The notes beneath the pieces were generated by a model. It had not been told where the DNA came from. It ran no database searches and was given only the letters and a program-made list of their open reading frames with translations. Positions 47,086 through 62,202 of a stretch of 64,000 nt of DNA are shown here, in pieces (position 1 is the first letter of the stretch; each line of letters starts with the position of its first letter). The stretch spans positions 1,302,001-1,366,000 of the forward strand of contig NZ_JACCBM010000001.1 of the NCBI RefSeq assembly GCF_013409865.1, written 5' to 3'. The position numbers and the translations under genes are program-made. Source of the DNA: Herbiconiux flava (GTDB taxonomy: Bacteria > Actinomycetota > Actinomycetes > Actinomycetales > Microbacteriaceae).

Positions 47086-47183
47086 GGCCGGCGTCGCCGC
47101 CGCGTCGCCCCGAACGGGTGGGGCGCGGCCGCGGCGCGGTTCCCCTACTGTGTGCACAGGGGCGAGGGCCGGAACGGGGTGCG

Positions 47184-48773
47184 GTGAGCGGGCACAGCGA
47201 CCACGGGCGTGCGAGCGACGCGCCCCCGGCGAGCGCCGCCGGCACGCCGAGCGACGACGGCATGGCCGAGTTCGGGTACCGCCCCACGCTCTCCCGCAGC
47301 ATCGGCCGCTTCGCCAGCTTCGCCGCCGGGGTCAGCTACATCTCGATCCTGACCGGCACGTTCCAGCTGTTCTACTTCGGCTTCCTCAACGGCGGCCCGG
47401 CCTACTGGTGGTCGTGGCCGCTGGTGTTCGGCGGGCAGCTCATGGTGGCGCTCTGCTTCGCGGAACTGGCCGCCCGCCATCCGGTGGCAGGATCCGTCTA
47501 CAACTGGAGCAAGCGCGTCGCCGGCCCCACCGTGAGCTGGCTCGCCGGCTGGCTGATGGTGATCGCGTCGATCGTCTCGCTCGCCGCGGTCGTGCTCGCC
47601 TACCAGGTGACGCTGCCGCAGCTCTGGAGCGGCTTCCAGCTGGTCGGCGACGGCACGGGCGCGAGCTTCGGTGTCAGCGCGGTGATCTGGGGAACGATCC
47701 TGGTCGTCTTCACCACCGTCGTGAACGCGGTCGGCGTGAAGCTGATGGCCCGCATCAACAGCATCGGCGTGATGATCGAGCTGGTCGCGGCCGTGCTGCT
47801 CGTCGTGGTGCTCGCGGTGAACGTCGTCAATCCGCCGTCGGTGCTCGTGGAGACCCAGGGCTTCGGCACCGGGATGCCCGGCGGCTACGCGGGCGCCTTC
47901 CTGATCGCGGCCATCGCGTCCGCCTACGTGATGTACGGCTTCGACACGGCGAGCTCCCTCGGCGAGGAGACGATCGACCCCCGCCGCACCGCGCCGACCG
48001 CGATCCTCCGGGCCGTCGTGGCGTCGTTCGTGATCGGCGGGCTGATCCTGCTCTTCGGCATCCTCGCCGCGCCCGATCTCGCCGATCCGGCCCTCGGCGA
48101 GCCCTCGGGCGGGTTGCAGCTGATCGTGCTGCAGGTGCTCGGCGGCCCGCTCGGCTCGGTCTTCCTCGGCTGCATCGTCGTCGCGATCACGGTCTGCGCG
48201 CTCGCGGTGCACACGGCGGGCATCCGTCTGGTCTTCGCGATGGCCCGCGACAACGCCCTCCCGGCCAGCGCCGCCCTCGCGAGGATCGACCCTCGCCGCC
48301 GCACGCCTCTTATCCCCGCGATCGTCATCGGCGTGCTCGCCGTGCTCATCCTGGCCGTGAACATCGGCACCCCGCAGATCTTCACCGCGGTCACGAGCGT
48401 CGCGGTCATCCTGATCTATCTCGCCTACCTGCTCGTCACGCTGCCTCTGCTCATCAGGCGCCTGCGCGGCGAATTCAGGTCGACGGATGCTCGTCCCGGC
48501 CGCTTCTCGCTCGGCCGACTCGGGCTGCCGATCAACATCCTCGCGGTGCTCTGGGGTGCGGCGATGGCGGTCAACCTGGCATGGCCGCGCGTGGAGGTCT
48601 ACGGCGACGACGGGCCGCTGCAGTACATCGCGGTGATCGTGATCGGCGCGGTCGTGGCGCTCGGGCTCGCGTGGTACCTGCTGCGGGGGCGGCACCGTGT
48701 CGGCACGCTGCCGGAGCACGCGGAGCAGACCCGGAATGCCGGCCGGACCCGGAATGCGGGGGAGGTCGGCTAG
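47184..48773 (+). CDS. APC-family amino acid/amine permease
   Basis: 529 residues with 12 hydrophobic segments. Helix 1 carries the SYISILTGTFQLFYFG region and the family block AELAARHPVAGSVYNWSKRV after helix 2; GFDTASSLGEETIDPRRTAP marks helix 6-7 as in GABA/polyamine permeases. The GTG at 47184 gives a 25-residue polar leader; a start at MAEFGYRP (47262) is possible. Proton- or gradient-driven uptake of an amino acid or amine is expected. Confidence 0.87.
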   Translation: MSGHSDHGRASDAPPASAAGTPSDDGMAEFGYRPTLSRSIGRFASFAAGVSYISILTGTFQLFYFGFLNGGPAYWWSWPLVFGGQLMVALCFAELAARHPVAGSVYNWSKRVAGPTVSWLAGWLMVIASIVSLAAVVLAYQVTLPQLWSGFQLVGDGTGASFGVSAVIWGTILVVFTTVVNAVGVKLMARINSIGVMIELVAAVLLVVVLAVNVVNPPSVLVETQGFGTGMPGGYAGAFLIAAIASAYVMYGFDTASSLGEETIDPRRTAPTAILRAVVASFVIGGLILLFGILAAPDLADPALGEPSGGLQLIVLQVLGGPLGSVFLGCIVVAITVCALAVHTAGIRLVFAMARDNALPASAALARIDPRRRTPLIPAIVIGVLAVLILAVNIGTPQIFTAVTSVAVILIYLAYLLVTLPLLIRRLRGEFRSTDARPGRFSLGRLGLPINILAVLWGAAMAVNLAWPRVEVYGDDGPLQYIAVIVIGAVVALGLAWYLLRGRHRVGTLPEHAEQTRNAGRTRNAGEVG

Positions 48774-49062: not shown

Positions 49063-49428
49063 TCAGGCGCGATCGTGAAGCGTGATCTGGTAGCCGTCCG
49101 GGTCGGCGAAGGTGAAGGTGCGACCGAACGGGCCGTCGATCGGCTCCGCCACGATCGTCACGCCGGCCTCGACGAGGGTGTCGTGCACGGCCTGGGTGTC
49201 GGGGGTGTGCAGCCAGATGGCGACGCCGATGCCGGGCTGCGGGATCGCGTCGAGGTCGACCCCCGGGAGCGCGCTCCGCACCGCGAAGGCCGCCGGGACC
49301 GTCGCGAAGACGACGGCGTGCGGAGGGCCCGCCTGGCGGGTGAAGCCGAGGTGCGTCTCGTAGAACGCCGCGGACGCGTCGAGGTCGCGCACCTGGAGGG
49401 AGATGAAGCCGGGGCCGGAGGAGGTCAT
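49063..49428 (-). CDS. VOC-superfamily (glyoxalase-like) protein
   Basis: 121 residues, one pair of beta-alpha-beta modules: FISLQVRDLDASAAFYETHLGF and the end PFGRTFTFADPDGYQITLHD. Metal ligands are only partly conserved. Such proteins are often resistance or detoxification enzymes. It diverges from marR across 60 bp holding two operator-like palindromes. Confidence 0.85.
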   Translation of the reverse strand: MTSSGPGFISLQVRDLDASAAFYETHLGFTRQAGPPHAVVFATVPAAFAVRSALPGVDLDAIPQPGIGVAIWLHTPDTQAVHDTLVEAGVTIVAEPIDGPFGRTFTFADPDGYQITLHDRA

Positions 49429-49472: not shown

Positions 49473-49490
49473 ATGTCAGAATACTGACAT
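49473..49490. promoter_or_regulatory. MarR operator, copy 2
   Basis: ATGTCAGAATACTGACAT: inverted repeat with 7-bp arms, overlapping the first two bases of the marR start codon, so binding would block its own expression. Confidence 0.78.
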
Positions 49491-49935
49491 GAAAAGCGAA
49501 TCCCCCGGTATCGAGTTGCCTACATCGGTCGGGTACCTGCTGAAGGAGGCGGCGACGGCGCTGAGGGTCTCGATGGAGGCGGTCCTGCGTCCACTCGGGA
49601 TGAGCGTCACGCACTACTCGTGCCTCGAGCTGCTCGCCCAGCGGCCGGGGCTGTCGAACTCGGAGCTGGCGCGCGGCGCCTTCGTGACGCGGCAGTCGAT
49701 GAACGTGCTGCTGCAGTCCCTGGAGCGGGACGGTCAGGTGACCCGTCCGGAGCAGCCGTCGTCGGGCCGCGTGCTGCCGACCGAGCTCACGCCGGAGGGT
49801 CGGGCCGCGCTCGCGCGGGCCAGCGCGGCGGTCCGAGGCGTCGAGGACCGCATGAAGTCGGGGTTGAGCGAAGCGGAGCAGGCGGCTTTCGCCGACTTCC
49901 TGCGCCGCAGCGTCGCCGCGCTGGCCGCCGGCTGA
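49489..49935 (+). CDS. MarR-family transcriptional regulator
   Basis: 148 residues: winged helix with SVTHYSCLELLAQRPGLSNSELARGAFVTRQSMNVLLQSLE and the RVLPTELTPEGRAAL wing. It probably represses itself and the divergent VOC gene through the two palindromes at 49447 and 49473. Ligand unknown. A 30-bp tandem repeat follows the gene. Confidence 0.9.
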   Translation: MKSESPGIELPTSVGYLLKEAATALRVSMEAVLRPLGMSVTHYSCLELLAQRPGLSNSELARGAFVTRQSMNVLLQSLERDGQVTRPEQPSSGRVLPTELTPEGRAALARASAAVRGVEDRMKSGLSEAEQAAFADFLRRSVAALAAG

Positions 49936-50050: not shown

Positions 50051-51289
50051 TCAGGCGCCGGGGAGGGCGCCCGCCACGACGCGGCCGCGCGAGACCACCG
50101 CGACGATGCGGGAGGTGTCGAGCTCGGCGAGGTCCTGCCAGGGCCGCCCCTCCATCACGAGGAAGTCGGCCGCCGCACCGGGAGCGAGGGTGCCGAGCCG
50201 GCCCTCTTCGCCGATCGCCTGGGCGGCGCGGGAGGTCGCCGACTCCAGTGCCCGCGCCGGCGACCAGCCGAAGGTCGCGGCCATCAGGCGCACCTCCTCC
50301 ATCTGGTCGCCGAAGTCCACGTGGTGGCCGTTCGCGTCGGTGCCCAGCACGAAGTCGACGCCGAGGTCGGCGGCCTCGCGCATCCGGGAGTCGCGCAGGG
50401 CGACGAGGTCGGCCGCCTTCTCGGCCTGCTCGGCCGAGACCCCGGCCCGGCCGGCCGCGATGCGGTCGTTGATGAGCAGGGTGGGGGCGACCGTGATGCC
50501 GAGGCCCACGATCCGGCCGGCCTGCGAGGCGCTCAGCAGCGTGCCGTGCTCGATCGAGTCGACCTCGTGCCAGATGGCCGCGTCGATGCCGGCCTCGGTG
50601 TGGGCGTGGGCGGCGACGCGCAGGCCCAGGGCGTGCGCCTCGTCGACGATCGCGTCGATCTCGGGGGCGGTGTAATTGCGCCAGGCGCTCTTGTCGCCCA
50701 CCGAGAGCACGCCGCCGCTGGTGGCGATCTTGATACCGTCGGCGCCGGCGCGCGCCCAGTGCCGCACCAGCTTGCGGCACTCGTCCGGGCCGTCGGCGAC
50801 GGGCTTCCGCAGCGGGAACGCCGGCGGGATGAAGAGATCGCCGTGCCCGGCGGTCATGCTGACCATGCCGTGCGCCTGCAGCCGGGGACCCTCCACGACA
50901 CCCTGCTCGAGTGCCCGCCGCAGCGAGAACTGGATGTCGTCGGCCGAGAGGTCGCGCAGCGTCGTGACTCCGCCGCGCAGGGCGGCGCGCGCGTTGGCGA
51001 GGCCGTGCAGGGTCTGCTCCTCGGGGCGGGTGGTGAGCGGCCAGGTGAGGAAGTCGGCGGTGCCGTGGCCGGCGTGGCCGACGAGGTGCACGTGGGTGTC
51101 GATCAGCCCCGGGATGATGCTCAGCCCGGCGGGCAGAGCGGATGCGGGCAGAGCGGATGCGGTCGTGCCGCCGTCCGCCGGCCGCAGCCCCGAGATGGTT
51201 CCGTCGACACCGTCGACCGTCCAGTCGAGGGTGACGGTGCCCCGGGCGGTGGTGCCGTCCCAGAGCTCGGCGGTGAGGGAGTGGTTCAT
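50051..51289 (-). CDS. Amidohydrolase (imidazolonepropionase / prolidase-like)
   Basis: 412-residue metal-dependent hydrolase: DTHVHL metal motif near residue 64, GADGIKIATSGG with the bridging lysine, downstream histidines in AAHAHTEAG and SIEHGT, and the catalytic Asp in LGTDANG. A 15-bp duplication containing GGATGC encodes SALPASALPA in the N-terminal beta domain. AGGA lies 4 nt before the ATG. Last gene of the operon with the BmpA-type ABC importer, so it should hydrolyse the imported compound or a derivative. Confidence 0.85.
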   Translation of the reverse strand: MNHSLTAELWDGTTARGTVTLDWTVDGVDGTISGLRPADGGTTASALPASALPAGLSIIPGLIDTHVHLVGHAGHGTADFLTWPLTTRPEEQTLHGLANARAALRGGVTTLRDLSADDIQFSLRRALEQGVVEGPRLQAHGMVSMTAGHGDLFIPPAFPLRKPVADGPDECRKLVRHWARAGADGIKIATSGGVLSVGDKSAWRNYTAPEIDAIVDEAHALGLRVAAHAHTEAGIDAAIWHEVDSIEHGTLLSASQAGRIVGLGITVAPTLLINDRIAAGRAGVSAEQAEKAADLVALRDSRMREAADLGVDFVLGTDANGHHVDFGDQMEEVRLMAATFGWSPARALESATSRAAQAIGEEGRLGTLAPGAAADFLVMEGRPWQDLAELDTSRIVAVVSRGRVVAGALPGA

Positions 51290-51340
51290 GGGGTCCTGAC
51301 GGGTGGTGAGCGCGGAACGTGGTGCGGGCGGGAGGGTGGG

Positions 51341-52630
51341 TCAGCTGCGGGAGGTGCGGCGCGGGAAGAGGTGGCCGAGGGCCGCCGGTGGGCGCATCGT
51401 GGTGCCCGCCACCACGAGCACCGCGAGGGTCACCAGGTAGGGCGCCGCCGTGGCGAGCTCGGGCGGCAGCGGCACGAACAGGAACACCAGCACGAGCACC
51501 GCGCCGAGCGCGAGCGGGGCGATGCCCGAGCGGCGGGCGCCGCGCCAGAACCGCAGGGCTCCGACGACGAGGAAGATCACCGCGAGGATGAACAGCAGCG
51601 CCCGGAACGTCTCGGGCCGCCCGAGCCCGACGGCGTCGGAGAAGCCGAAGAGCGACGATCCGAGGAAGACGCCCGAGGGCATCCAGTTGCCGAAGATCAG
51701 CGTCGCGAGACCGATGAAGCCCCGCCCCGCGGTCTGGTTCTCGACGTAGGCCTGCGAGATGAGCGCGAGGTAGCCGCCCGCGAAGCCGGCCAGGCCGCTG
51801 CCGACGAGCACGGCGATGTACCGGGTGCGGTGCACCTTGCCGCCGAGCGCCTGCAGCGCAGCCGGCTCCTCACCCGCGGCCCGCCAGCGCAGGCCGAACC
51901 TGGTGCGCCAGAGCACGTAGGCCGTGGCGGGGATGAGCAGCAGCCCGATCACGGCCGCGAGCGAGACGTTGTGCGTGAGCCCCCCGACGATGCCGCCGAG
52001 CTGCGAGACGACCGGGATGCCCGACTGCTCCATCGTGGCGGTGAGGTCGGGCGTGCCGAGCCCGCCCGAGAGGAACGGCACGCTGAGCACCGGCAGCGAG
52101 CCGTCGATGCGCGGCGAGCGGGCGATGGTGCCGCCGTCGACCCCGTTGAACACGATGTCGCTGGCGAAGCGCGCGGAGGCCCCGGCGATCACGTTGATGG
52201 CCACACCGACGACGAGCTGGTTCAGCCCCATCTCGATGCAGAGCACCGCCATCAGCAGCCCGAACACGAGGCCGCCGACGACCCCGCCGCCGAGGGCGGC
52301 CCAGGGGCCCCAGAGCCAGCCGAACACCCCGGCCATCCAGGTGCCGCCGATCATCATCCCCTCGAGGCCGACGTTGATGACTCCCGCGCGCTCGGAGTAG
52401 AGGCCGCCGATGGCGACCACCGCGATCGGCACGGTGAGCCGCAGCGCCGAACCCCAGGTGGCCGAGGCCGCGATGCCGGGCGCGTCGGCGACGTACTGGG
52501 CCACGATGACGAGGCCGAGGCCGAGCAGGCCCCAGCGGAGTCCGGCGCGCAGCCGCTGCCGACTCGGGGCGAGCGATCGCGGGGCGGCCGCCGGGGCGGT
52601 GGGGGCGGTGGGCTCGACGGTGTCGGTCAT
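51341..52630 (-). CDS. ABC permease, BmpA/nucleoside type (second)
   Basis: 429 residues with about 10 helices and the typical block IGGLYSERAGVINVGLEGMMIGG near residue 83, which marks NupQ/YufQ-type permeases partnering BmpA lipoproteins. The ATG overlaps the preceding permease stop by ATGA. The C terminus carries two extra helices beyond the usual length. Forms the heterodimeric channel with the permease at 52627. Confidence 0.87.
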   Translation of the reverse strand: MTDTVEPTAPTAPAAAPRSLAPSRQRLRAGLRWGLLGLGLVIVAQYVADAPGIAASATWGSALRLTVPIAVVAIGGLYSERAGVINVGLEGMMIGGTWMAGVFGWLWGPWAALGGGVVGGLVFGLLMAVLCIEMGLNQLVVGVAINVIAGASARFASDIVFNGVDGGTIARSPRIDGSLPVLSVPFLSGGLGTPDLTATMEQSGIPVVSQLGGIVGGLTHNVSLAAVIGLLLIPATAYVLWRTRFGLRWRAAGEEPAALQALGGKVHRTRYIAVLVGSGLAGFAGGYLALISQAYVENQTAGRGFIGLATLIFGNWMPSGVFLGSSLFGFSDAVGLGRPETFRALLFILAVIFLVVGALRFWRGARRSGIAPLALGAVLVLVFLFVPLPPELATAAPYLVTLAVLVVAGTTMRPPAALGHLFPRRTSRS

Positions 52631-53745
52631 CGCGAGGCCTCCATTCCGGTCGGCAGGGGAGCGGCGGGCGGCGGGGTCTCGCGGCGGCGGCGGCGGAGCG
52701 TGTTCCAGAGCGTGACGCGCTGGTCGGCGCGCTCGGTGAGCCAGTAGCCGACGGCCGAGCTGAGCAGGATGACGGCCATGAACACCGAGCCGACCTCGGT
52801 CGGCAGCTGCACGAGCCCCAGCACCTGCGAGCTGCGCTCGACGAAGGCGAGCACGAAGGCGCCGGCCGCGATGCCGATCGGATGCGAGCGGCCGAGCAGC
52901 GCGGCGGCCAGCCCCGTGAACATGAGGTCGGTGGGCAGGGTGCCGTCGAAGCGGAATGCGGTGCTCAGCACGTGCGGCATGCCGACGAGCCCGGCGATCG
53001 CGCCCGAGCCGAGCATTGCCCAGATGATCCGCCGGTTCACCTTGATGCCGGCCGACTCGGCCGCCTCGGGCGAGCGCGAGGCCACCTGCAGGGTGAAGCC
53101 GAAGACGGTGCGGTACTGGATCAGGTAGAACAGGATGCCCACCACGATCGCCACGACGAGGAAGCCGGTGATCGAGGTGCGGTTGCCGATGCCGAGGTCG
53201 ATCAGCACGGGCATCGCACCGTCCTCGCCGATGATCGCGGTGCCGGTGTTCTGGCCGCCGCCGGAGCGGAAGACGTCGGCCAGCAGGATGGCGACGACCG
53301 TGGTGGCGATCGCGTTCATCAGGATCGAGGTGATCACCTCGCTGACACCCCGGTAGACCTTCAGCAGGGCGGGCACGAGAGCCCAGAGGGCACCGGTGGC
53401 GCAGCAGACGATCAGGGTGATGGGCAGCCGGAGGTAGAGCGGCAGCGGCAGATTCGCGGCGACGACCGCGCCGGCCAGGGCGGCGACCCGGTACTGGCCG
53501 TCGACGCCGATGTTGAACAGGCCCATCCGCAGCGCGAAGGCCGCGGCGACGCCGGCGAGGTAGAGCGGAACGGCGTTGTTCAGCGCCGACACGAGCGAGG
53601 CGGGCTCGATGCCGTAGTTCCACATCACCTCGTAGGCGCTCGTGGCCGAGTAGCCGCCGATGGTGAGGAAGAGGGTGGTGACGAGCAGGGCGAGCAGCAC
53701 CGAGACGACGGGGCCGGCCAGGGTGACCGCGATGCGCCGGATCAT
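52627..53745 (-). CDS. ABC permease, BmpA/nucleoside type (first)
   Basis: 372 residues with about 9-10 helices and the block ALRMGLFNIGVDGQYRVAALAG typical of the NupP/YufP permease. Its ATG overlaps the ATPase stop by ATGA, so the transporter genes are coupled in order ATPase, permease, permease. Confidence 0.88.
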   Translation of the reverse strand: MIRRIAVTLAGPVVSVLLALLVTTLFLTIGGYSATSAYEVMWNYGIEPASLVSALNNAVPLYLAGVAAAFALRMGLFNIGVDGQYRVAALAGAVVAANLPLPLYLRLPITLIVCCATGALWALVPALLKVYRGVSEVITSILMNAIATTVVAILLADVFRSGGGQNTGTAIIGEDGAMPVLIDLGIGNRTSITGFLVVAIVVGILFYLIQYRTVFGFTLQVASRSPEAAESAGIKVNRRIIWAMLGSGAIAGLVGMPHVLSTAFRFDGTLPTDLMFTGLAAALLGRSHPIGIAAGAFVLAFVERSSQVLGLVQLPTEVGSVFMAVILLSSAVGYWLTERADQRVTLWNTLRRRRRETPPPAAPLPTGMEASR

Positions 53746-55298
53746 GCGGCACCTCCTTCGGCTGTGTTCGTCGTGTGGCCTCGTACCCCGGTCATGTACT
53801 CCCCGAGCTCCTGCGCATCCACCCGCCGCGGATCGAGCGCCCCTACGATGCGCCCGCGGTAGAACACGAGCAGCCGGTCGCTGAGCGCGAGCAGCTCGTC
53901 GAGGTCGGCCGAGATGAGCAGTGTTCCGAGACCGCGGTCGCGGGCGGCGGTGAGTTCGCTCCAGACCGCCGACTGGGCGCCGATGTCGACACCGCGGGTC
54001 GGATGCGCGGCGATCAGCACGCGCGGATCGCTGCCGAGCTCGCGCCCCACGATGAACTTCTGCTGGTTGCCGCCCGAGAGCGCCGACGCGAGCGTGGACG
54101 GGTCGCCGCCCCGCACGTCGAAGCGGCTGATGATGGCCCGGGCCTGGGCTGCGGCACCGGCCCGGCTGAACCACGGCCCCCGCTTCACCGGCGGCCGGCC
54201 GTGGTAGCCGAGGGCGGCGTTCTCGCGCAGCGCCATCGACAGCACGACGCCGTCGCGATGCCGGTCTTCGGGGATGTAGGCGAGCCCGCGGGCCCGCCGG
54301 GTCTCGGTGGGGAGGGCGTCGATGTCCTCTCCTCCCATGCTGATGCGCCCGGTGTGCGCGACGCGGCCGAGCAGGGCCATCAGGAGCTCCGACTGCCCGT
54401 TGCCCTCGACGCCCGCGATGCCCACGATCTCGCCGGAGTGCACCTCGAGCGAGACGTCGTCGAGCGCCGGCACCTCGCCGGCCTCCCCGACGGTGACCCC
54501 GTGCGCGGAGAGCACCACGTCGGTGCCCGGCGGAACCGCCCGCGGGGCGACCGCCGGCATCGCGACCTTGACCATCAGGGCGGCGAGGTCGGAGGCGGAC
54601 GATTCCAGGGGGGTCGTGTGCCCCACCACGGCGCCGGCGCGGATGACGGTGATCTCGTCGGCGAAGTCGAGCACCTCGTCGAGCTTGTGCGAGATGAAGA
54701 TGACGGCGGCTCCCGCCTCGGTGAAGCGGCGCATGGCGGCGAACAGCGACGCGGCTTCACTCGGCACGAGCACGGCGGTGGGCTCGTCGAGGATGATGAT
54801 CCGCGCGTCGCGGTAGAGCACCTTGAGGATCTCGACCCGCTGGCGGCCGCCGACCCCGACGTCGCGCACCACGGCGTCGACGTCGACCTCGAACCCGTTG
54901 CGCGTCGCGAGCGCGGCCACCCGTGACCGGGCGGCGGCGCTGTCGAGCCGGAAGGCCGATCCGGGTTCGTCGGCCAGCACCACGTTCTCCCACACGCGCA
55001 GCGCCGAGGCGAGCAGGAAGTGCTGGTGCACCATGCCGATGCCGGCCTGCTGCGCATCCCGCGGCGAGGAGAAGGAGCGCGGGGAGCCCGCGATCTCGAT
55101 CGTGCCCTCGTCGGGCCGCTCCTCGCCGGCGAGGATCTTCATCAGAGTGGACTTGCCGGCCCCGTTCTCGCCGACGATCGCGTGCACCGTGCCCGCCCGC
55201 ACCGTGAGGTCGATGCGGTCGTTCGCCACGAAGGCGCCGAAGCGCTTGACGATGCCCGTCAACCGCACCAGCACGTCGTTCTCGGCTGTCTCGCTCAT
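53742..55298 (-). CDS. ABC ATPase with two nucleotide-binding domains, BmpA/nucleoside type
   Basis: 518 residues. The first domain has Walker A GENGAGKST (43-51), a signature read as VGGRQRVEI and Walker B IIILDEPTAV. The second has a degenerate P-loop (GVEGNGQSE), signature LSGGNQQK and IAAHPTRGVD where the Walker B acidic residue is lost, as is normal for the RbsA/NupO family. Energises import. Separated from bmpA by 113 bp with a strong hairpin. Confidence 0.92.
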   Translation of the reverse strand: MSETAENDVLVRLTGIVKRFGAFVANDRIDLTVRAGTVHAIVGENGAGKSTLMKILAGEERPDEGTIEIAGSPRSFSSPRDAQQAGIGMVHQHFLLASALRVWENVVLADEPGSAFRLDSAAARSRVAALATRNGFEVDVDAVVRDVGVGGRQRVEILKVLYRDARIIILDEPTAVLVPSEAASLFAAMRRFTEAGAAVIFISHKLDEVLDFADEITVIRAGAVVGHTTPLESSASDLAALMVKVAMPAVAPRAVPPGTDVVLSAHGVTVGEAGEVPALDDVSLEVHSGEIVGIAGVEGNGQSELLMALLGRVAHTGRISMGGEDIDALPTETRRARGLAYIPEDRHRDGVVLSMALRENAALGYHGRPPVKRGPWFSRAGAAAQARAIISRFDVRGGDPSTLASALSGGNQQKFIVGRELGSDPRVLIAAHPTRGVDIGAQSAVWSELTAARDRGLGTLLISADLDELLALSDRLLVFYRGRIVGALDPRRVDAQELGEYMTGVRGHTTNTAEGGAA

Positions 55299-55353
55299 CA
55301 GGTGCTCCTGTCGGGGAGGGAAACGGGGGACGGAGGCGGCGGGGGAGTGGAAG

Positions 55354-55394
55354 CGCCCGACCGCCGGCGGTGTGGGGCCGCCGGCGACCGGGCG
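55354..55394 (-). terminator. Intra-operon hairpin between bmpA and the ATPase gene
   Basis: Arms of 17 nt (55354-55370 and 55378-55394) around a 7-nt loop. On the plus strand two positions mismatch as A-C pairs, but in minus-strand RNA both become G-U pairs, giving an unbroken 17-bp stem. The structure therefore suits the operon transcript, where it would partially terminate or protect the bmpA message and favour binding-protein excess. Confidence 0.7.
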
Positions 55395-55411
55395 CCGTCT
55401 GGGTGAGCGGA

Positions 55412-56452
55412 TCAGACCGCGCTCGGCACCTCGATGGTGCCGTCGATGATGTCCTGCTTGGCCTTCTCGAGCTGATCCGTGTACGCATCGAGGAAGTCGC
55501 CGCTCGTGGAGTAGCCGACGCCGTCGTTCGAGAGGTCGAAGTCCTGCTCGCCCGCCTCGAGGCTGCCGTCGAGGAACGACTTGATCGAGTCCTCGACCGC
55601 GACGTTCACGTTCTTGATCGCCGAGGTGAGGATGAACGGCTTGATCGACTCGTCCACCTGGTTGTAGACGTCGCCGTCGACCCCGATGGCCCAGTTCTTC
55701 TGCGCATCCGTCGACGAGGCAGCGGCCTGTTCGTAGACGCCCTGGCCCGAGCCGCCCGCGGCGGCGTAGATCACGTCGGCGCCACCGGCGTACATCGAGG
55801 CGGCGGCCTCCTTGCCCTTGGTGGGGTCGGAGAAGCCGGTGAAGTCGCCGAGGGGCGAGAGGTACGTCGTGTCGACCGTGATCGACGGGTTCACCGACTT
55901 GGCGCCGGCCTCGTAGCCCACGAAGAAGTTCTGGATGCTCGGCTGGTCGACCCCGCCGATGAAGCCGATGTGACCGGTCTTCGAGGTGAGGGCTGCGGCC
56001 ACGCCGACGAGGTAGGAGGACTGCTCGGCCGCGAACGAGATGGTCGTGACGTCGGGGATGGAGGTGCCCTTGTCGATGTCGACCGCCACGAACTGCGTGT
56101 CGGGGTGCTCGGTGGTCTGCTCCATCGGGGTGGCGTACTGGAAGCCGATGCCGATCGCGAGGCCGGCACCCTGCGAGATCGCGAGGTCGAGGCGGTCCTG
56201 GTAGTCGTCGGTGTTGGGGCTCGAGAAGTCGAGGGGGGTGAACGAGAACTCCGACTGCGCGTCGGTGAAGCCCTTGTAGGCGCTGTCCATGAAGGAGAAG
56301 TCGCCGGTGGTGCCGTAGAGCATCGCGACCTTCGGCAGATCGGCGTCGGCGCTCGGCTGCACCGTGGCGGTCTTGCCCGAGCAGGCCGAGAGCAGCAGGG
56401 CGGCGGTGAGTGCGGTGGCGCCGAGGGCGGCGGCCTTGCGCGAGAACGTCAT
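55412..56452 (-). CDS. BmpA/Med-family substrate-binding lipoprotein
   Basis: 346 residues. Signal peptide with lipobox LSAC (Cys24); mature domain with VAMLYGTTGDFSFMDSAYKGF and YAAAGGSGQGVYEQAA, the pattern of nucleoside/purine-binding BmpA proteins (PnrA, Med). It captures the substrate outside the membrane for the ABC importer encoded downstream. AAGGAG lies 4 nt before the ATG at 56452. A LacI-type operator lies 11 bp upstream. Confidence 0.9.
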   Translation of the reverse strand: MTFSRKAAALGATALTAALLLSACSGKTATVQPSADADLPKVAMLYGTTGDFSFMDSAYKGFTDAQSEFSFTPLDFSSPNTDDYQDRLDLAISQGAGLAIGIGFQYATPMEQTTEHPDTQFVAVDIDKGTSIPDVTTISFAAEQSSYLVGVAAALTSKTGHIGFIGGVDQPSIQNFFVGYEAGAKSVNPSITVDTTYLSPLGDFTGFSDPTKGKEAAASMYAGGADVIYAAAGGSGQGVYEQAAASSTDAQKNWAIGVDGDVYNQVDESIKPFILTSAIKNVNVAVEDSIKSFLDGSLEAGEQDFDLSNDGVGYSTSGDFLDAYTDQLEKAKQDIIDGTIEVPSAV

Positions 56453-56462
56453 GGGGCTCCTT

Positions 56463-56476
56463 GGAAATCGTTTGCA
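56463..56476. promoter_or_regulatory. LacI-type operator near bmpA
   Basis: GGAAATCGTTTGCA fits the LacI-family pattern TGCAANCGNTTGCA in 10 of the 12 fixed positions. It overlaps the leader just upstream of the bmpA Shine-Dalgarno, where binding would block transcription. Confidence 0.65.
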
Positions 56477-56585
56477 GAAACGTCGGGCGGGGGGAACGGA
56501 AACCGGTGCGAGAATCAGTGTTCGCCCGCGCCGTTGCCGCCGCATTTCTCGAATGTTTCTAGCATGTTTAACGTCGGCAAGGTTC

Positions 56586-56599
56586 TGCAATCGTTTGCC
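56586..56599. promoter_or_regulatory. LacI-type operator near lacI
   Basis: TGCAATCGTTTGCC fits TGCAANCGNTTGCA in 11 of 12 fixed positions. It is 45 bp before the lacI start and 123 bp from the bmpA-side operator, so one repressor could bridge both promoters. Confidence 0.75.
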
Positions 56600-56643
56600 T
56601 AAATTTGCCCGAGGCGGGGCCCCGGAGAGCCTATGCTGTCGGC

Positions 56644-57759
56644 ATGCAGACCCCCGAGCCGACCCTCGCCGACGTGGCCGCCCGCGCCGGCGTCAGCGTG
56701 GCCACGGCATCGCGGGCACTCACCGGGGCCCGGCCCGTCAGCGACACCCTGCACCGAAAGGTGCGCGACGCCAGCCGTGAGCTCGGTTATCGGCGGAACG
56801 CCGTGGCGAGCGCCCTTCGCCTGCAGCGCACCGAGACGGTCGGCCTGGTGCTGCCCCGCTACACCACCGGCTTCCTGTCCGCGCTGATCGAGTCGGTCAG
56901 CGACGGCCTCGAGCGCAACGACCTCTCGCTGGTGCTGCGCTACTCCGAACCCGACGCGCTGCACGACGTCGGCAACGTCGAGTCGCTGATGGCGCGCCGC
57001 GTCGACGGCATCATCATCTGCCCCTCCTCCCTCGAGGCGAGCCAGGAGTCGATCGAGGCCGCCGGTCCCGTGCCGATCGTGCAGGTCGGCCGCTTCGTCA
57101 TCACCGATCGCTCCGACTCGGTCGGCCTCGACGAGGACCGCGCGACCGCGATGCTCGTGGCGCACCTCGTCGAGCGGGCGGCCCGGCGCATGCTCGTCGT
57201 CGGGCTCGATCCGGATGCTCCCGCCGACGCCCGCCGCATCCGGGCCCTGCGCGGCGCCGCCGAGGGCGCGGCGGTCGTCGACGTCGCCCCCTTCACCCCG
57301 GCGGTGCTCGACGGCGGCATCCGTGCCGCCGAACGCGTGGTGGCGGCCGGACCGGCTGCCCTCCCCGACGCCATCGTCTGTGCCAACGACGACGTGGCCG
57401 CGGGCGTGCTGGCCGTGCTGCGGATGCGCGGCCTCGCCGTTCCCGCGCGGGTGCAGGTGGCCAGCCTGCTCGATCTGTCGCCCGGCCGGGAAGACCTGAC
57501 GGTGACGACCCTCCGGCATCCGTGGCCCGAGATGGGGCGGGAGGCCGTTCGCCTGCTGCTCGACTCGCAGCAGCGGGGGCGCGGACCTGGGGCCGAACCC
57601 GCCGCCGAGCGGATAGCCCGCCGGGTCAGTCTCGCCCCTCAGCTCGTGCCCGGCCAGTCGACCCGCGAGCACCCCGTGCCCGATGCCGCCTCGCCCGGGG
57701 CCGTGTCGTCCGCCACCGTCCCGACCGCCACCGTCCCCCACCCGAAGGAGATCCCGTGA
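56644..57759 (+). CDS. LacI-family transcriptional regulator
   Basis: 371 residues. HTH TLADVAARAGVSVATASRAL at the N terminus, hinge near residue 55, and a periplasmic-binding-protein-like ligand domain. A non-conserved tail of about 40 residues follows the usual end. The ATG at 56644 is the only start directly before the HTH. First gene of an operon with three catabolic genes; its stop overlaps the next start by GTGA. Likely induced by the imported compound. Confidence 0.9.
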   Translation: MQTPEPTLADVAARAGVSVATASRALTGARPVSDTLHRKVRDASRELGYRRNAVASALRLQRTETVGLVLPRYTTGFLSALIESVSDGLERNDLSLVLRYSEPDALHDVGNVESLMARRVDGIIICPSSLEASQESIEAAGPVPIVQVGRFVITDRSDSVGLDEDRATAMLVAHLVERAARRMLVVGLDPDAPADARRIRALRGAAEGAAVVDVAPFTPAVLDGGIRAAERVVAAGPAALPDAIVCANDDVAAGVLAVLRMRGLAVPARVQVASLLDLSPGREDLTVTTLRHPWPEMGREAVRLLLDSQQRGRGPGAEPAAERIARRVSLAPQLVPGQSTREHPVPDAASPGAVSSATVPTATVPHPKEIP

Positions 57760-58556
57760 CCCGAATCCTGCTGCTCGGCGAATCGTGGTTCGTGCACTCG
57801 ATCCATCAGAAGGGTTTCGACTCCTTCACCACCTCGGAGTTCACCCTCGGCGGCGCGGAGTTCAGCGCCGCGCTGCGCGAGGCCGGCCACGAGGTGACGC
57901 ACCTGCCCTGCCACGAGATCGTGGACGGCCTGCCCGCGACGCCCGAGGGGCTTCGTGCGATCGCCGACGTCGTCGTCATCTCCGACGTCGGGGCGAACAC
58001 CCTGCAGCTGCCGCCGGCCACCTTCGGCCGCTCCGAGACCTCCGTCGATCTGATCGAGGTGCTGCGGCGCTACGCCGAGCTCGGCGGCGGGTTGCTCATG
58101 GCGGGCGGGTACATGTCGTTCTCGGGAATCGACGCCAAGGCCCGGTGGGGGCGCACCGTGCTCGCCGAAGTGCTGCCGGTCGGCGTGCTCGACCGCGACG
58201 ACCGGGTCGAGCTGCCGGCGGGGGCGGCGCCGTCCACGGTGGCCGCCCATCCGGTGACGGCGGGCCTCGAGGGGGAGTGGCCGGCGCTGCTCGGGCTGAA
58301 CGAGGTCACGGTGCGCGAGGGAGCGGTGGAGCTCGCACGCTGCGCCGGGCATCCGCTGCTCGTGGTCGGCGGCTACGGCGAGGGGCGCACCGCCGCGTTC
58401 ACCTCGGACATCGCGCCGCACTGGGCGCCGCCCGGCTTCGTGCAGTGGCCGGGCTACGCCGCGCTGTTCGACCGGCTCGTGCGCTGGCTCGCGGGCGAGG
58501 AGCTGCCGGTGGCGTCCGATTCGGCAACGGGCGCGACGAGCGAGGTCTCGGCGTGA
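57756..58556 (+). CDS. Glutamine-amidotransferase-like protein (GATase1-like)
   Basis: 266 residues of the putative class I glutamine amidotransferase group (VTRILLLGESWFVHSIHQKGFDSF, VVVISDVGANTL, GGGLLMAGGYMSFSG). The nucleophile position typical of true amidotransferases (Cys in GxCxG) reads AGGYMSF, without cysteine, so amidotransferase activity is doubtful; a carbohydrate- or nucleoside-processing role is possible. GAAGGAG lies 6 nt before the GTG start. Coupled to lacI and the amidohydrolase by 4-nt overlaps. Confidence 0.78.
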   Translation: MTRILLLGESWFVHSIHQKGFDSFTTSEFTLGGAEFSAALREAGHEVTHLPCHEIVDGLPATPEGLRAIADVVVISDVGANTLQLPPATFGRSETSVDLIEVLRRYAELGGGLLMAGGYMSFSGIDAKARWGRTVLAEVLPVGVLDRDDRVELPAGAAPSTVAAHPVTAGLEGEWPALLGLNEVTVREGAVELARCAGHPLLVVGGYGEGRTAAFTSDIAPHWAPPGFVQWPGYAALFDRLVRWLAGEELPVASDSATGATSEVSA

Positions 58557-59998
58557 GCGGCGACGAGCGGATGCGCTCCGACTCGGTCACGCTGGCCGAC
58601 GGTTCCGACACCGTCGACACGGTCATCACGCCGGTCACCGTGCTGGCGGGCACCACGCGGCCCGCGCCGGGCTACCCCGACCTGCCGCGCGACGACGTGG
58701 CCGCCCGCGGGACGGCCACATTCCTCGAGGGGCATGCGATCGGCATCCGCGACGGGATGATCGCCTGGATCCGGCCGGCGGCCGAGGTCGAGGCCGCCAC
58801 CCTCGCGCAGGCGGCGGTGATCGACGGCAGCGGGCAGGTCGCCATCCCGGGCCTGATGAACTCGCACACCCACTCGCCGATGACGATGTTCCGCGGCTCG
58901 GCCGAGGACGTGCCCATCAAGGACTGGTTCAACAAGCACATCTGGCCGATGGAGGTGAACCTGACCGAGCGCGACGTCACGCTGGGCGCCCGCCTGGCCG
59001 TCGGCGAGATGCTGCTCGGTGGGGTGACGAACTTCGCCGACCACTACTTCTTCACGGATCGCATCGCCGAGGTCGTCGCGGAGAGCGGCGCCCGCGGGCA
59101 CCTCGCGTCGACGTTCTTCTCGTCGCAGGGCCCGGAGGGGCTCGAGCGCTCGGCGGCCTTCGCCGAACGGTGGAACGGTGCAGCCGACGGACGCATCACG
59201 ACCACGCTCGGCCCGCACGCGACCTACACCGTGACCGACGCCGACCTGGAGGCGACGGCCGAGCAGGCGCGACGACTCGGGGTGCGCACCCACATCCATG
59301 CCGCCGAGAGCATGAACCAGACGGAGTCGAGTCTCGAGCGGCACGGCCGCACGCCGGTGCAGGTGCTGCACGACACCGGCATCCTCGAGACGGGGGCGAT
59401 CATCGCCCACGGCGCGGGCATCGTCGAGAGCGACCTCGAGTGGCTGGTCCCGCACGCCGACCGCGTCGCCGTCGCGTCCTGCACCAAGGTCTACATGAAG
59501 CACGCGCACACCACGACTCCGGTGCGGATGCTGCACGACGCGGGTCTCACCGTGGGCCTCGGCACCGACGGGCCGGCCTCGCACAACACACTCGACGTGC
59601 TGGAGAGCATGCGGATGATGTCGCTGAAGCAGAAGGACGACCACCTCGACGCCACCTGGATGACCTCGGCCCACGCCCTCGACCTCGCCACCCGGCAGAG
59701 TGCGGCGGCGTTCGGACTTCAGGACTCGCTCGGGGTGCTCGCGCCGGGCTACAAGGCCGACGTGGTGCTGATCGACCTGCAGAAGCCGCACCTCCAGCCG
59801 ATGCACGACCTCGCGGCCGCCCTGGTGCTGAGCGTGAAGTCGAGCGACGTCACCACGGTGCTCGTCGACGGCCGGCTCGTGGTCGAGCACGGCCGTCTCG
59901 TGACGATGGACCTCACCGACACCATCGCCGAACTCAACCGCCGCCTGCCCGAGCTCTCCGACCGCACCCGCGGCACGATCCAGGACTACGCCCCGTGA
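58553..59998 (+). CDS. Amidohydrolase, MtaD/SAH-deaminase-like (TrzN/AtzA superfamily)
   Basis: 481 residues. Metal motif HTH at 105-107 in MNSHTHSPMTMFRGSAED, the DWFNKHIWPME block typical of methylthioadenosine/S-adenosylhomocysteine deaminases and s-triazine hydrolases, HIHAAES, and catalytic Asp in GTDGPASHNTLD. It should deaminate or hydrolyse a purine-like ring. The GTG start overlaps the previous stop by GTGA. Confidence 0.88.
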   Translation: MSGDERMRSDSVTLADGSDTVDTVITPVTVLAGTTRPAPGYPDLPRDDVAARGTATFLEGHAIGIRDGMIAWIRPAAEVEAATLAQAAVIDGSGQVAIPGLMNSHTHSPMTMFRGSAEDVPIKDWFNKHIWPMEVNLTERDVTLGARLAVGEMLLGGVTNFADHYFFTDRIAEVVAESGARGHLASTFFSSQGPEGLERSAAFAERWNGAADGRITTTLGPHATYTVTDADLEATAEQARRLGVRTHIHAAESMNQTESSLERHGRTPVQVLHDTGILETGAIIAHGAGIVESDLEWLVPHADRVAVASCTKVYMKHAHTTTPVRMLHDAGLTVGLGTDGPASHNTLDVLESMRMMSLKQKDDHLDATWMTSAHALDLATRQSAAAFGLQDSLGVLAPGYKADVVLIDLQKPHLQPMHDLAAALVLSVKSSDVTTVLVDGRLVVEHGRLVTMDLTDTIAELNRRLPELSDRTRGTIQDYAP

Positions 59999-60783
59999 GC
60001 GCCCCCCGCCCGCGCGCACACGCCGGAGGCCGTCCGATGACCCGCGTCGACGCCTACTCCACACCCTGGACCGACGTGGCGAGCCACCTCGCCGCCGGCG
60101 ACGGGCTCGTGCTGCTGCCGTTCGGCGCGCTCGAGCAGCACGGCCCGCACCTCCCGCTCGGCACCGACACGGCCACCGCCGTCGCCGTCGCGGAGCGCCT
60201 CGCCGACCGGCTCGACGCCCTGCTCTTGCCGCCGATCCACTACGGGGACACCTGGAACAACGCCGGCTACCCCGGCACCGTTTCCCTCTCGCCCGAGACG
60301 GTCACGTCGATCGCCGTCGACATCGGCCGCTCGCTCGCGGCCTCGGGCGCCCGGGCGCTGATCGTCGTGAACGGCGACTGGGGCAACCGGCAGCCGCTCT
60401 ACACTGCCGTGCGCCGCCTGAACGCCGAGCGCATCCTGCCCGCTCTCGCACTGGACTACCCGGGCATGGACGAGGCCGTCGCCGAGGTGCGCACGAGTCG
60501 CGGCGCCGCCCCGGGCCTCAACCACGCCGAGGAGGTCGAGACGTCGATCATGCTGGCCCTCGAGCCGGAGCACGTGCATCCGGAGCGCTTCGCCGCCGAG
60601 TACCCCGAGTTCCCGAGCGACTTCGGCACGCGGCCGATGCAGCTGCACCCGTTCTCGCCCTCGGGCGTCTTCGGCGACCCGTCGCACGCGACCGCTGCCA
60701 AGGGCGAGCACATCCTGGCAGCCACCGTCGAGGGCTCGCTCGCGGTGCTCGCCGACTTCATCGCCGGGCTGCCCCCGCGCTGA
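59995..60783 (+). CDS. Creatininase-family amidohydrolase
   Basis: 262 residues. Metal ligands in EQHGPHLPLGTDT (Glu47, His49, Asp58), the VNGDWGN loop and HAEEVETS near residue 175, all conserved in creatininase and related cyclic-amide hydrolases. The GTG at 59995 is chosen for its 4-nt overlap with the preceding gene; ATG 60038 is an alternative. The family opens cyclic amides such as creatinine or hydrolyses formamides. Last gene of the operon. Confidence 0.87.
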   Translation: MSAPRPRAHAGGRPMTRVDAYSTPWTDVASHLAAGDGLVLLPFGALEQHGPHLPLGTDTATAVAVAERLADRLDALLLPPIHYGDTWNNAGYPGTVSLSPETVTSIAVDIGRSLAASGARALIVVNGDWGNRQPLYTAVRRLNAERILPALALDYPGMDEAVAEVRTSRGAAPGLNHAEEVETSIMLALEPEHVHPERFAAEYPEFPSDFGTRPMQLHPFSPSGVFGDPSHATAAKGEHILAATVEGSLAVLADFIAGLPPR

Positions 60784-60801: not shown

Positions 60802-62202
60802 TCACCAGTCCGCGGGCCCCGCGCTCCCCGCCTCGTACTCCTCGAGCGGCGTCTCGCCCGCGGCCCAGGCGGTGAGCACCGGCGTCACGATGCGCCAGCA
60901 CTGCTCGGCGATGTCGCCCCGCACCGACAGAAGCCGGTCGTGGGCCAGGATGCCCGCCAGCACCTGCCCGTAGGCATCGAGCTCGGCCTCCCCGGGCCGC
61001 GCCTCGAGCTGCACGCGCTCGAGCCGGTCGGTGTCGTCGGCGCTGTTCACGAACAGGTCGAGGTCGACGTCGCCGTTCAGGAGGGACATCCGCAGCACGG
61101 TGCCTTCGCCCGCGTCGGCCCCGCCGAGCCCCTCCGGCGGGGTCGACGGCCGGAAGTGCACCGCGACCTCGGCCCGCGGCGAGCCGATCGCCTTGCCCGA
61201 GCGCAGCACGAACGGCACGCCGGCCCAGCGCGGGGTGTCGACCTGCAGCAGCAGCTGGGCGAGGGTCTCGATGTCGTTGGCGGGATCCACGTCGTCCTCG
61301 TCGACGTACGACGGGAAGAACCGGCCGTCGACGCGCCCCTCGGTGTAGCGGGCGCGGCGGGCGGTGTGCGGGTCGTCGCGCCAGAGCCGCACAGCGCCGA
61401 GCACCTCGGCCATCCGGTCGTGCACGTCGTCGGCCGTGATGCGGTCGGGCCGTTCGAGCGTGGTCAGCGCGAGCACCATCAGCAGGTGGCTCTGCAGCAT
61501 GTCGCGCAGGGCGCCGGTGGAGTCGTAGAACGCGGCCCGGCCCTCGAGACCGAGCTCCTCGTCGAAGACGATCTCGACCTTCTCGATCTCGTCGGCGCTC
61601 CAACCCGACTCGAGCAGGCGATTGCCGAAGCGGAGGCCCAGCATGCCGAGCACGGTGGCGTTGCCGAGGAAGTGGTCGATGCGCCAGAGCCGGTCCTCGG
61701 GGATGACGGCGGCCAGCGCCTCGTTCAGCGAGCGGGCGTCGTCCAGGTCCTCGCCGAAGGGCTTCTCGATCGCCACGACGAGGTCGTCGGGCAGCTCGAG
61801 CTGCGCGAGCGACTCGGCGACGGCGTGCCCCATCGCGGGCGGCAGGGCCACGTAGAGCACGGGCGAGGACGGGCAGGCCGCCAGCAGCGCCTTCAGCTGC
61901 TCGGGGTCGGAGGCGTCGGTCGCCACGAAGCGCGCCGCCTTCGACAGGGCGTCGACGGTGGCGGGCGCGATCTGGGCCGCTTCGAGGCTGCGGCGCACGA
62001 GGCCCTGCCACTCCTCGTCGCTCTGCGGCGTGCGGGCGGCACCGATCAGCGTGAGCTCGAGCCCGCCGGCGAGCTCGGCGACCTTCCCCAGCCCGGGCAG
62101 CAGCAGCCGTTCGGTGAGATCACCACCGGCGCCGAGGATGGCGATGCTCCGCGGCTCGCGGCCGAGCGACTCGGCGTCGGGGATTCCGGGCTGATCCGAC
62201 AT
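60802..62202 (-). CDS. Glucose-6-phosphate dehydrogenase-like protein (divergent paralog)
   Basis: 466 residues, full G6PDH length. NADP fold GAGGDLTERLLLPGL (24-38), EKPFGEDL (146-153) and the second-domain RDMLQSHLL are present. The substrate motif, normally RIDHYLGK, reads RIDHFLGN: Asp176 and His177 remain but Tyr178 is Phe and the lysine that contacts the phosphate is Asn181. It is therefore probably not the housekeeping Zwf and may act on a different sugar or lack activity. No opcA or gnd gene is adjacent. Confidence 0.85.
   Translation of the reverse strand: MSDQPGIPDAESLGREPRSIAILGAGGDLTERLLLPGLGKVAELAGGLELTLIGAARTPQSDEEWQGLVRRSLEAAQIAPATVDALSKAARFVATDASDPEQLKALLAACPSSPVLYVALPPAMGHAVAESLAQLELPDDLVVAIEKPFGEDLDDARSLNEALAAVIPEDRLWRIDHFLGNATVLGMLGLRFGNRLLESGWSADEIEKVEIVFDEELGLEGRAAFYDSTGALRDMLQSHLLMVLALTTLERPDRITADDVHDRMAEVLGAVRLWRDDPHTARRARYTEGRVDGRFFPSYVDEDDVDPANDIETLAQLLLQVDTPRWAGVPFVLRSGKAIGSPRAEVAVHFRPSTPPEGLGGADAGEGTVLRMSLLNGDVDLDLFVNSADDTDRLERVQLEARPGEAELDAYGQVLAGILAHDRLLSVRGDIAEQCWRIVTPVLTAWAAGETPLEEYEAGSAGPADW

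Follow-up and report, generated by a model that had tools for sequence, protein, structure and literature searches.

A conserved, probably jointly regulated gene cluster with a proposed role in nucleoside uptake and catabolism in Herbiconiux flava

Introduction

Within the genome of the soil actinobacterium Herbiconiux flava (family Microbacteriaceae), a stretch of 64,000 nucleotides (contig NZ_JACCBM010000001.1, positions 1,302,001 to 1,366,000; hereafter the window, numbered from its first letter) carries nine genes that encode a Bmp-type importer, two amidohydrolases (AH1 and AH2), a creatininase-family protein (CRE), a protein of the GATase1_like family (GAT) and a LacI-family regulator. 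We take these genes to form a real and conserved nucleoside catabolic cluster, probably jointly regulated, in which import by the Bmp system, deamination by AH2 and cleavage by a purine nucleoside phosphorylase (PNP) encoded nearby are the best supported of the predicted steps, both by sequence and by genomic setting. We regard it as a new version of the nucleoside-uptake operons already known.

Gene content and layout

A check of open reading frames (ORFs), together with a Pfam scan, found all nine genes open and back to back between positions 50051 and 60783 (Table 1). Transcription of the minus-strand genes proceeds in the order Bmp, ATPase, perm1, perm2 and AH1, and that of the plus-strand genes in the order LacI, GAT, AH2 and CRE. 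An earlier note on this DNA had described nine genes of these families in two divergent operons, and they are indeed present; its remark that almost all of them overlap by 4 nt is right for five of the seven intra-operon junctions and wrong for AH1/perm2 and ATPase/Bmp, which are separated by gaps of 51 and 113 nt, respectively.

Table 1. Features of the cluster and of its divergent promoter (ABC, ATP-binding cassette; MTA/SAH, methylthioadenosine/S-adenosylhomocysteine)
Feature	Position	Strand	Basis or remark
AH1, amidohydrolase (PF01979), carboxypeptidase/dipeptidase group	50051..51289	-	Pfam, alignment
perm2, BPD_transp_2 ABC permease (PF02653)	51341..52630	-	likely start ATG 52630
perm1, BPD_transp_2 ABC permease (PF02653)	52627..53745	-	likely start ATG 53745; 4-nt overlap at each end
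ABC ATPase (PF00005), two ABC_tran stretches	53742..55298	-	Pfam
Bmp, PnrA/BmpA-type nucleoside receptor lipoprotein (PF02608), LLSAC lipobox	55412..56452	-	likely start ATG 56452, AAGGAG upstream
O1, LacI-type site GAAATCGTTTGC	56464..56475	.	just upstream of Bmp ribosome-binding site
O2, LacI-type site GCAATCGTTTGC	56587..56598	.	123 bp from O1, upstream of LacI
LacI-family regulator (PF00356/PF13377)	56644..57759	+	likely start ATG 56644
GAT, GATase1_like (PF07090)	57756..58556	+	likely start GTG 57756
AH2, amidohydrolase (PF01979), TRZ/ATZ - MTA/SAH deaminase group, own subfamily	58553..59998	+	likely start GTG 58553
CRE, creatininase-family (PF02633), subfamily marked NGD[WFY]GN	59995..60783	+	likely start GTG 59995

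The importer

The receptor Bmp scores well above the cut-off of PF02608 (176.8 against 24.1 bits), and its best matches among solved structures are Bmp/PnrA-type receptors. PMC13325309 lists the receptor positions that stack on the nucleobase (two Phe) and contact the ribose (Asp, Asp and Lys), and alignment to PnrA of Streptococcus pneumoniae indicates that Bmp keeps them as F54 and F176 for stacking and D125, D259 and K280 on the ribose side; the register of these residues to the BmpA numbering is one that we infer. Sequence supports the assignment of Bmp, the ATPase and the two permeases to a nucleoside-type ABC importer. With the PnrA/BmpA importers, such as TmpC/PnrA of Treponema pallidum, PnrA of S. 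pneumoniae and BmpA/BmpD of Borrelia burgdorferi, it shares the receptor family, the aromatic sandwich, the ribose-side residues, the BPD_transp_2 permeases and the double ATPase; unlike them, it comes together with two amide hydrolases and a regulator of the LacI family. Import of vitamin B6 was considered and rejected, the scores lying under all four cut-offs of NF047927-30 (106.1 vs 400, 105.5 vs 465, 123.8 vs 400 and 442.3 vs 670). The 3.85-Mb genome encodes eight Bmp-type receptors in all, and several of these have a gene for nucleoside hydrolase, a deaminase or PNP close by (L120, L121 and L122; L numbers designate loci throughout).

The enzymes

AH2 aligns over approximately 400 residues with MTA/SAH-type deaminases (4f0r, 4dyk and 4gbd, which by name we assign to COG0402) and keeps their HxH, H, E, H and D, positions that presumably have the catalytic roles they have in those deaminases. 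It differs from them in its active-site loop, which reads KxYxK where they have CPESNLKLASG or similar (SNLK-type), and in scores far below curated cut-offs. The loop is CTKVYMKHA in the window, APKGYLKLG in a second AH2-like protein of the same genome (AH2', locus L146) and CCPKVYLKHA in AH2 of Streptomyces, with K312, Y314 and K316 invariant in all eight sequences aligned. The label "MtaD-like", given to this protein earlier, fits its catalytic residues but not the NCBIfam equivalog model, whose cut-off is missed (PRK15493, 190 vs 779). Triazine degradation was rejected, as triazine and atrazine hydrolases match AH2 less well than MTA/SAH-type deaminases do.

CRE belongs to the same family (PF02633) as creatininase (Pseudomonas putida, 1j2t/3a6h) and the mycofactocin protein MftE, and its E47, H49 and D58 align with E34, H36 and D45 of creatininase. 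Unlike creatininase, however, it carries Asp where that enzyme has H120 and Gly where it has E122, the NGHYEN motif being replaced by NGD[WFY]GN in all 120 relatives listed; H120 and E122 are metal-site residues of creatininase. The scores lie under the cut-offs both of creatininase (TIGR04448, 126.2 against 235) and of MftE (TIGR03964, 140.3 against 172). A true creatininase acting on creatinine or hydantoin was therefore rejected on cut-off and motif alike, and an MftE on its cut-off; CRE is treated here as a putative amide-hydrolase-like subfamily of its own.

The nearest solved relative of AH1 is the L-arginine carboxypeptidase Cc2672, and its nearest characterized relatives are annotated as dipeptidases and carboxypeptidases. 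Characterized members of this group cut next to a free carboxylate. H66, H68, K187, H228, H248 and D318, which we assume to be the usual binuclear metal-site positions (HxH, Lys, H, H and D ligands), are invariant in 7/7 aligned sequences and are common to AH1, Cc2672 and prolidase-like amidohydrolases. Unlike those enzymes, AH1 is set beside nucleoside import and deamination, and it misses the cut-off for the Xaa-Pro dipeptidase type (NF051886, 224.6 against 500).

GAT passes the PF07090 (GATase1_like) cut-off and has the corresponding fold, its predicted structure (predicted local distance difference test, 91.7) resembling STM3548 and STM1381 and, next, ThuA-like proteins. As had been remarked before, it looks like an amidotransferase without the expected cysteine: at the elbow position, 40 of 41 aligned sequences have Tyr and the remaining one has Phe, with no Cys within four columns in any of them. 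A classical glutamine amidotransferase was rejected for want of this nucleophile. Because many residues are invariant across the 41 sequences (among others E9, H17, K19, H53, D77, D148, D149, R150, E152, D218 and H222), we take GAT for a probable enzyme rather than a remnant. Its nearest solved relatives are Salmonella STM1381 and STM3548 (3soz and 2gk3); no function for STM1381, STM3548 or PF07090 was found among the literature matches listed, and what is documented for GAT here is a setting among nucleoside genes.

Conservation and genomic setting

A scan of genome contigs for GAT gave 146 confirmed relatives, of which 80 were kept as loci; the closest named ones are from Herbiconiux, and GAT occurs in 22 of the 199 genomes of a family sample. 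All eight non-regulator genes stand together in seven of these 80 loci (L013, L065, L015, L016, L018, L021 and L022), so that the conserved co-occurrence in related genomes to which the earlier note had looked was found, and they do so in L140 as well. More partial sets also occur. L134 has the genes from AH1 through the importer, LacI, CRE and an adenosine deaminase that is 72 % identical to a Herbiconiux one; L180 has those from AH1 through the importer and CRE; L179 has CRE, LacI and AH1; and L181 has CRE and AH1. Streptomyces loci carry AH2, LacI, GAT and the Bmp importer (Bmp, ATPase and permeases) in one run, in most cases with PNP, and have no matches to CRE or AH1. Loci from Cellulomonas and Actinotalea (L029, L032, L051, L054 and L055) combine GAT and the Bmp importer with varying nucleoside hydrolase, ribokinase, adenosine deaminase and phosphotriesterase (PTE)-family genes.

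Overall, a gene for AH2, adenosine deaminase, PNP, nucleoside hydrolase, a ribokinase-like protein or Bmp lies within 10 kb in 78 of the 80 GAT loci, the other two (L069 and L092) being short contigs; a deaminase lies within that distance in 55, and PNP or nucleoside hydrolase in 50, these being counts over loci many of which are from Streptomyces and not independent, and having no random-window control behind them. Since adenosine deaminase, PNP, nucleoside hydrolase and ribokinase accompany the relatives, the neighbours elsewhere point to purine-nucleoside chemistry, with extra amide cleavage added to it.

In the Actinotalea locus L054 and in L058, from a Modestobacter metagenome-assembled genome, several nucleoside hydrolase matches follow one another near GAT. 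In Rhizobium, Roseomonas, Rhodococcus, Pseudonocardia and others (L009-L012 and L067-L091), PF07090 proteins are encoded near LacI, ribokinase-like, BtpA/SgcQ, TenA or PTE-family genes, neighbours that suggest a ribose- or nucleoside-linked role for PF07090, the family that includes Salmonella STM1381.

To the right of the window, in the same genome (L146, C1:1366001-1386000), lies a unit with AH2', a DeoD-type PNP, an NMT1-type ABC importer and LacI, 15.7 to 23 kb beyond CRE and equivalent to window positions of about 76.5 to 83.7 kb. The PNP gene, at C1:1379944, is beside AH2' and about 17 kb right of the cluster; its counterpart in L016 passes NF004489 (259.7 vs 230), and the own-genome copy is 87 % identical to it. 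In 9 of the 80 GAT loci (L014, L015, L016, L019, L020, L021, L022, L023 and L064), the fetched stretch contains an NMT1-type importer accompanied by PNP or deaminase genes.

Linkage of CRE and AH1

Within the family sample, AH1 occurs in 28 of the 199 genomes, with 32 copies at E up to 1e-105, and CRE in 13, with 15 copies at E up to 1e-55. AH1 is present in 13/13 CRE genomes, and every one of the 15 CRE copies lies 0.8 to 11.1 kb from an AH1, an association whose hypergeometric values ignore genome relatedness. The H. flava genome itself has a second such set (L119, C1:1720000-1739999), in which CRE2 (54 % identical to CRE) and AH1b (55 % to AH1) are joined by genes for an adenosine deaminase, Bmp, an ATPase and an adenine-deaminase-like protein; the adenosine deaminase passes TIGR01430 (252.2 vs 216.55), and the adenine-deaminase-like protein is under its cut-off (341.8 vs 472.5). 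The whole genome of 3.85 Mb has three PF00962 genes. An adenosine deaminase or AH2-type gene is in the fetched stretch of 20 of the 32 AH1 copies, and in L195, L202, L204, L206 and L177 it directly adjoins AH1 on the same strand. The stretches span 13 to 20 kb, and same-strand ORFs that overlap by more than half were merged, so that gene counts in them are lower bounds (AH1 itself is counted in 31/32). AH1-type enzymes of other Microbacteriaceae (L189-L198 and L202-L206) are encoded in operons unlike that of the window, with importers of the SBP_bac_5 or NMT1 type, regulators of the PucR type and adenosine deaminase nearby.

Divergent promoter and shared regulation

Between the two operons are two near-palindromic LacI-type sites, O1 and O2 (Table 1). 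Across the whole window, the pattern GCAANCGNTTGC with at most one mismatch is found 4 times where 1.40 matches are expected, and a count of 4 is reached in 5 of 100 shuffles; this count is by itself poor evidence, and conservation is better evidence. Twenty cluster-bearing sources were scanned for the site pair, of which L139, L199 and L201, apparent repeats of L022, L065 and L014, were dropped. Among the 17 distinct sources that were left, a pair spaced 119 to 125 bp is present in seven (the window, L013, L015, L016, L065, L183 and L187), that is, in 7 of the 10 with a LacI orthologue (identity at least 57 %) and in 0 of the 7 without one. In an alignment of those seven promoters, which took in only sources picked for having both sites, the O1 blocks AATCG and TTGC are invariant and the O2 core nearly so, at a mean column identity of 69 %. 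Because the twin sites track the orthologous LacI, the regulator probably controls both operons as one regulon. No sigma-70 promoters or terminators were found in 56400-56700, by a search that is uninformative for this organism. An operator shared with the neighbouring NMT1/PNP unit was rejected: L146 has no exact match and a single one-mismatch match outside the promoter region, and imperfect palindromes there differ. Co-regulation of that unit with the cluster is consequently not supported by these sequence comparisons.

A proposed pathway

We propose, with a probability of roughly one in two, that the cluster is a single LacI-controlled regulon by which the cell takes up and breaks down an adenosine-type nucleoside, probably one with a group attached through an amide or urea link. 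The importer would bring in the nucleoside and AH2 would remove the 6-amino group, converting an adenosine-type into an inosine-type nucleoside that would then be cleaved by the DeoD-type PNP about 17 kb to the right, beside the second AH2-like deaminase. CRE and then AH1 would act in turn on the amide-type substituent, CRE opening a cyclic amide or cutting an exposed one to give a free carboxylate and AH1 releasing the amino-acid-like part; this order is proposed because the product of a creatininase-type step would be a carboxylate, next to which characterized relatives of AH1 cut. GAT would be an optional member that accompanies nucleoside genes in many bacteria. The nucleoside-type import and the deamination that the earlier note had put forward are supported by the Bmp pocket residues, by the adenosine deaminase that replaces AH2 in one relative (L134) and by the nearby PNP. 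Should the proposal hold, soil actinobacteria would possess a pathway devoted to a decorated purine nucleoside; two uncharacterized subfamilies, the NGD-type creatininase-like and the AH1-type, would have a reaction that can be tested; and PF07090, an orphan family found from Salmonella to Streptomyces, would have a documented nucleoside setting.

Several observations weigh against this proposal. GAT and AH2 are missing from the otherwise similar loci L134 and L180. The substrate of AH2 may be other than adenosine, because the protein scores far under all curated deaminase models, even the best of them (PRK06038, 331.1 vs 609), and its active-site loop differs. Likewise, AH1-type enzymes may serve other substrates, as 12 of the 32 AH1 copies have no deaminase in their stretch and 10 of the 32 are near a peptide-type SBP_bac_5 gene (two checked by Pfam). 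Outside the family, the link between CRE and AH1 weakens: among the five non-own CRE loci of an order sample (396 genomes), AH1 is nearby only in L134 and was not seen in the stretches of L135-L138, and in a class sample (394 genomes) AH1 and CRE occur in three genomes each, own included, the only other one with both (G397) having them on different contigs. Finally, L014, L134 and L179 have a LacI orthologue and yet lack the site pair.

As for the substrate, N6-threonylcarbamoyladenosine (t6A) and its cyclic form (ct6A), which may come from decaying tRNA, are the best fit to the order of CRE and AH1 among the compounds considered, because the five-membered ring of ct6A resembles that of creatinine and in t6A an amino acid is bound to adenosine via urea; the assignment is speculative, and a dedicated catabolic route for these compounds is a long shot. 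In such a route, Bmp would import the free nucleoside; CRE would open the five-membered ring, turning ct6A into t6A much as creatininase acts on creatinine; AH1 would cut the purinyl-urea bond to give threonine, CO2 and adenosine; and AH2 or an adenosine deaminase would form inosine, from which PNP would free the base. Were this so, one could test directly what happens in the environment to hypermodified nucleosides from tRNA. Among the open-access literature matches listed, none concerned t6A catabolism or this gene set by name, in keeping with the remark in the earlier note that the pathway matched no named one.

Alternative explanations

The strongest rival to the uptake and catabolism of a decorated nucleoside is the plain salvage of adenosine or deoxyadenosine, with AH2 as a redundant adenosine-type deaminase and with CRE and AH1 as unrelated passengers. 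The pocket residues of Bmp are, by the positions given in PMC13325309, those of ordinary nucleoside receptors, and the neighbours elsewhere are common salvage enzymes. The notion of passengers, however, sits badly with CRE and AH1 occurring together where importer and deaminase were not found (L179 and L181) and forming a second set in the same genome (L119). That genome, moreover, already has its three PF00962 deaminases, as well as further sets (L120 and L122) in which Bmp stands with deaminase-like and nucleoside hydrolase genes and no match to CRE or AH1 was obtained, so that we consider plain salvage unlikely.

Catabolism of peptides or cyclic dipeptides, in which CRE would open a cyclic dipeptide or lactam, AH1 would be a dipeptidase and the nucleoside genes would be a separate neighbour, agrees with the SBP_bac_5 receptors near AH1 copies and with the annotation of the nearest characterized AH1 relatives. 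We nevertheless judge it improbable, given that the importer of the window is nucleoside-type, that AH1 and adenosine deaminase are immediate same-strand neighbours in the loci named above and that in L189 AH1 is near a PucR-type purine regulator.

More doubtful still is the reading of the earlier note, by which AH2, CRE and AH1 deaminate a single N-heterocycle and open its ring in steps. Creatininase opens a cyclic amide, so that the chemistry is available at the level of the family. Additionally, ring opening has a precedent in PMC7356986, where an amidohydrolase-family enzyme opens a pyridine ring; it does so as a dioxygenase and does not cluster with deaminases, for which reason it was not taken as a model. 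Against stepwise ring opening, no ring-cleaving enzyme was identified, and no oxidoreductase in the Pfam scan of the nine genes; CRE is without two creatininase motif residues, as are the 120 relatives looked at; and AH1 is nearest to carboxypeptidases rather than to deaminases or cyclic amidases. This part of the earlier interpretation is not supported.

A last reading is that the cluster takes up and inactivates an antibiotic of the peptidyl- or acyl-nucleoside type, resembling puromycin or ascamycin, that soil neighbours make. This reading, conceivable where amide-cutting enzymes, a deaminase and a nucleoside importer come together in soil actinobacteria, seems the least probable of all, as purine-salvage genes accompany the set in relatives, suggesting nutrition, and none of the nine genes is by Pfam an export or known resistance gene.

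Flanking genes

To the left of the cluster, the ORF list, judged by eye, contains a permease-like membrane protein (47118-48773), a glyoxalase-like protein (49063-49428) and a MarR-like regulator (49489-49935), which are not assigned to the system. Downstream of CRE, on the opposite strand, is a glucose-6-phosphate dehydrogenase gene (60802-62202), which keeps its place beside the set in no relatives but the closest, L013 and L065.

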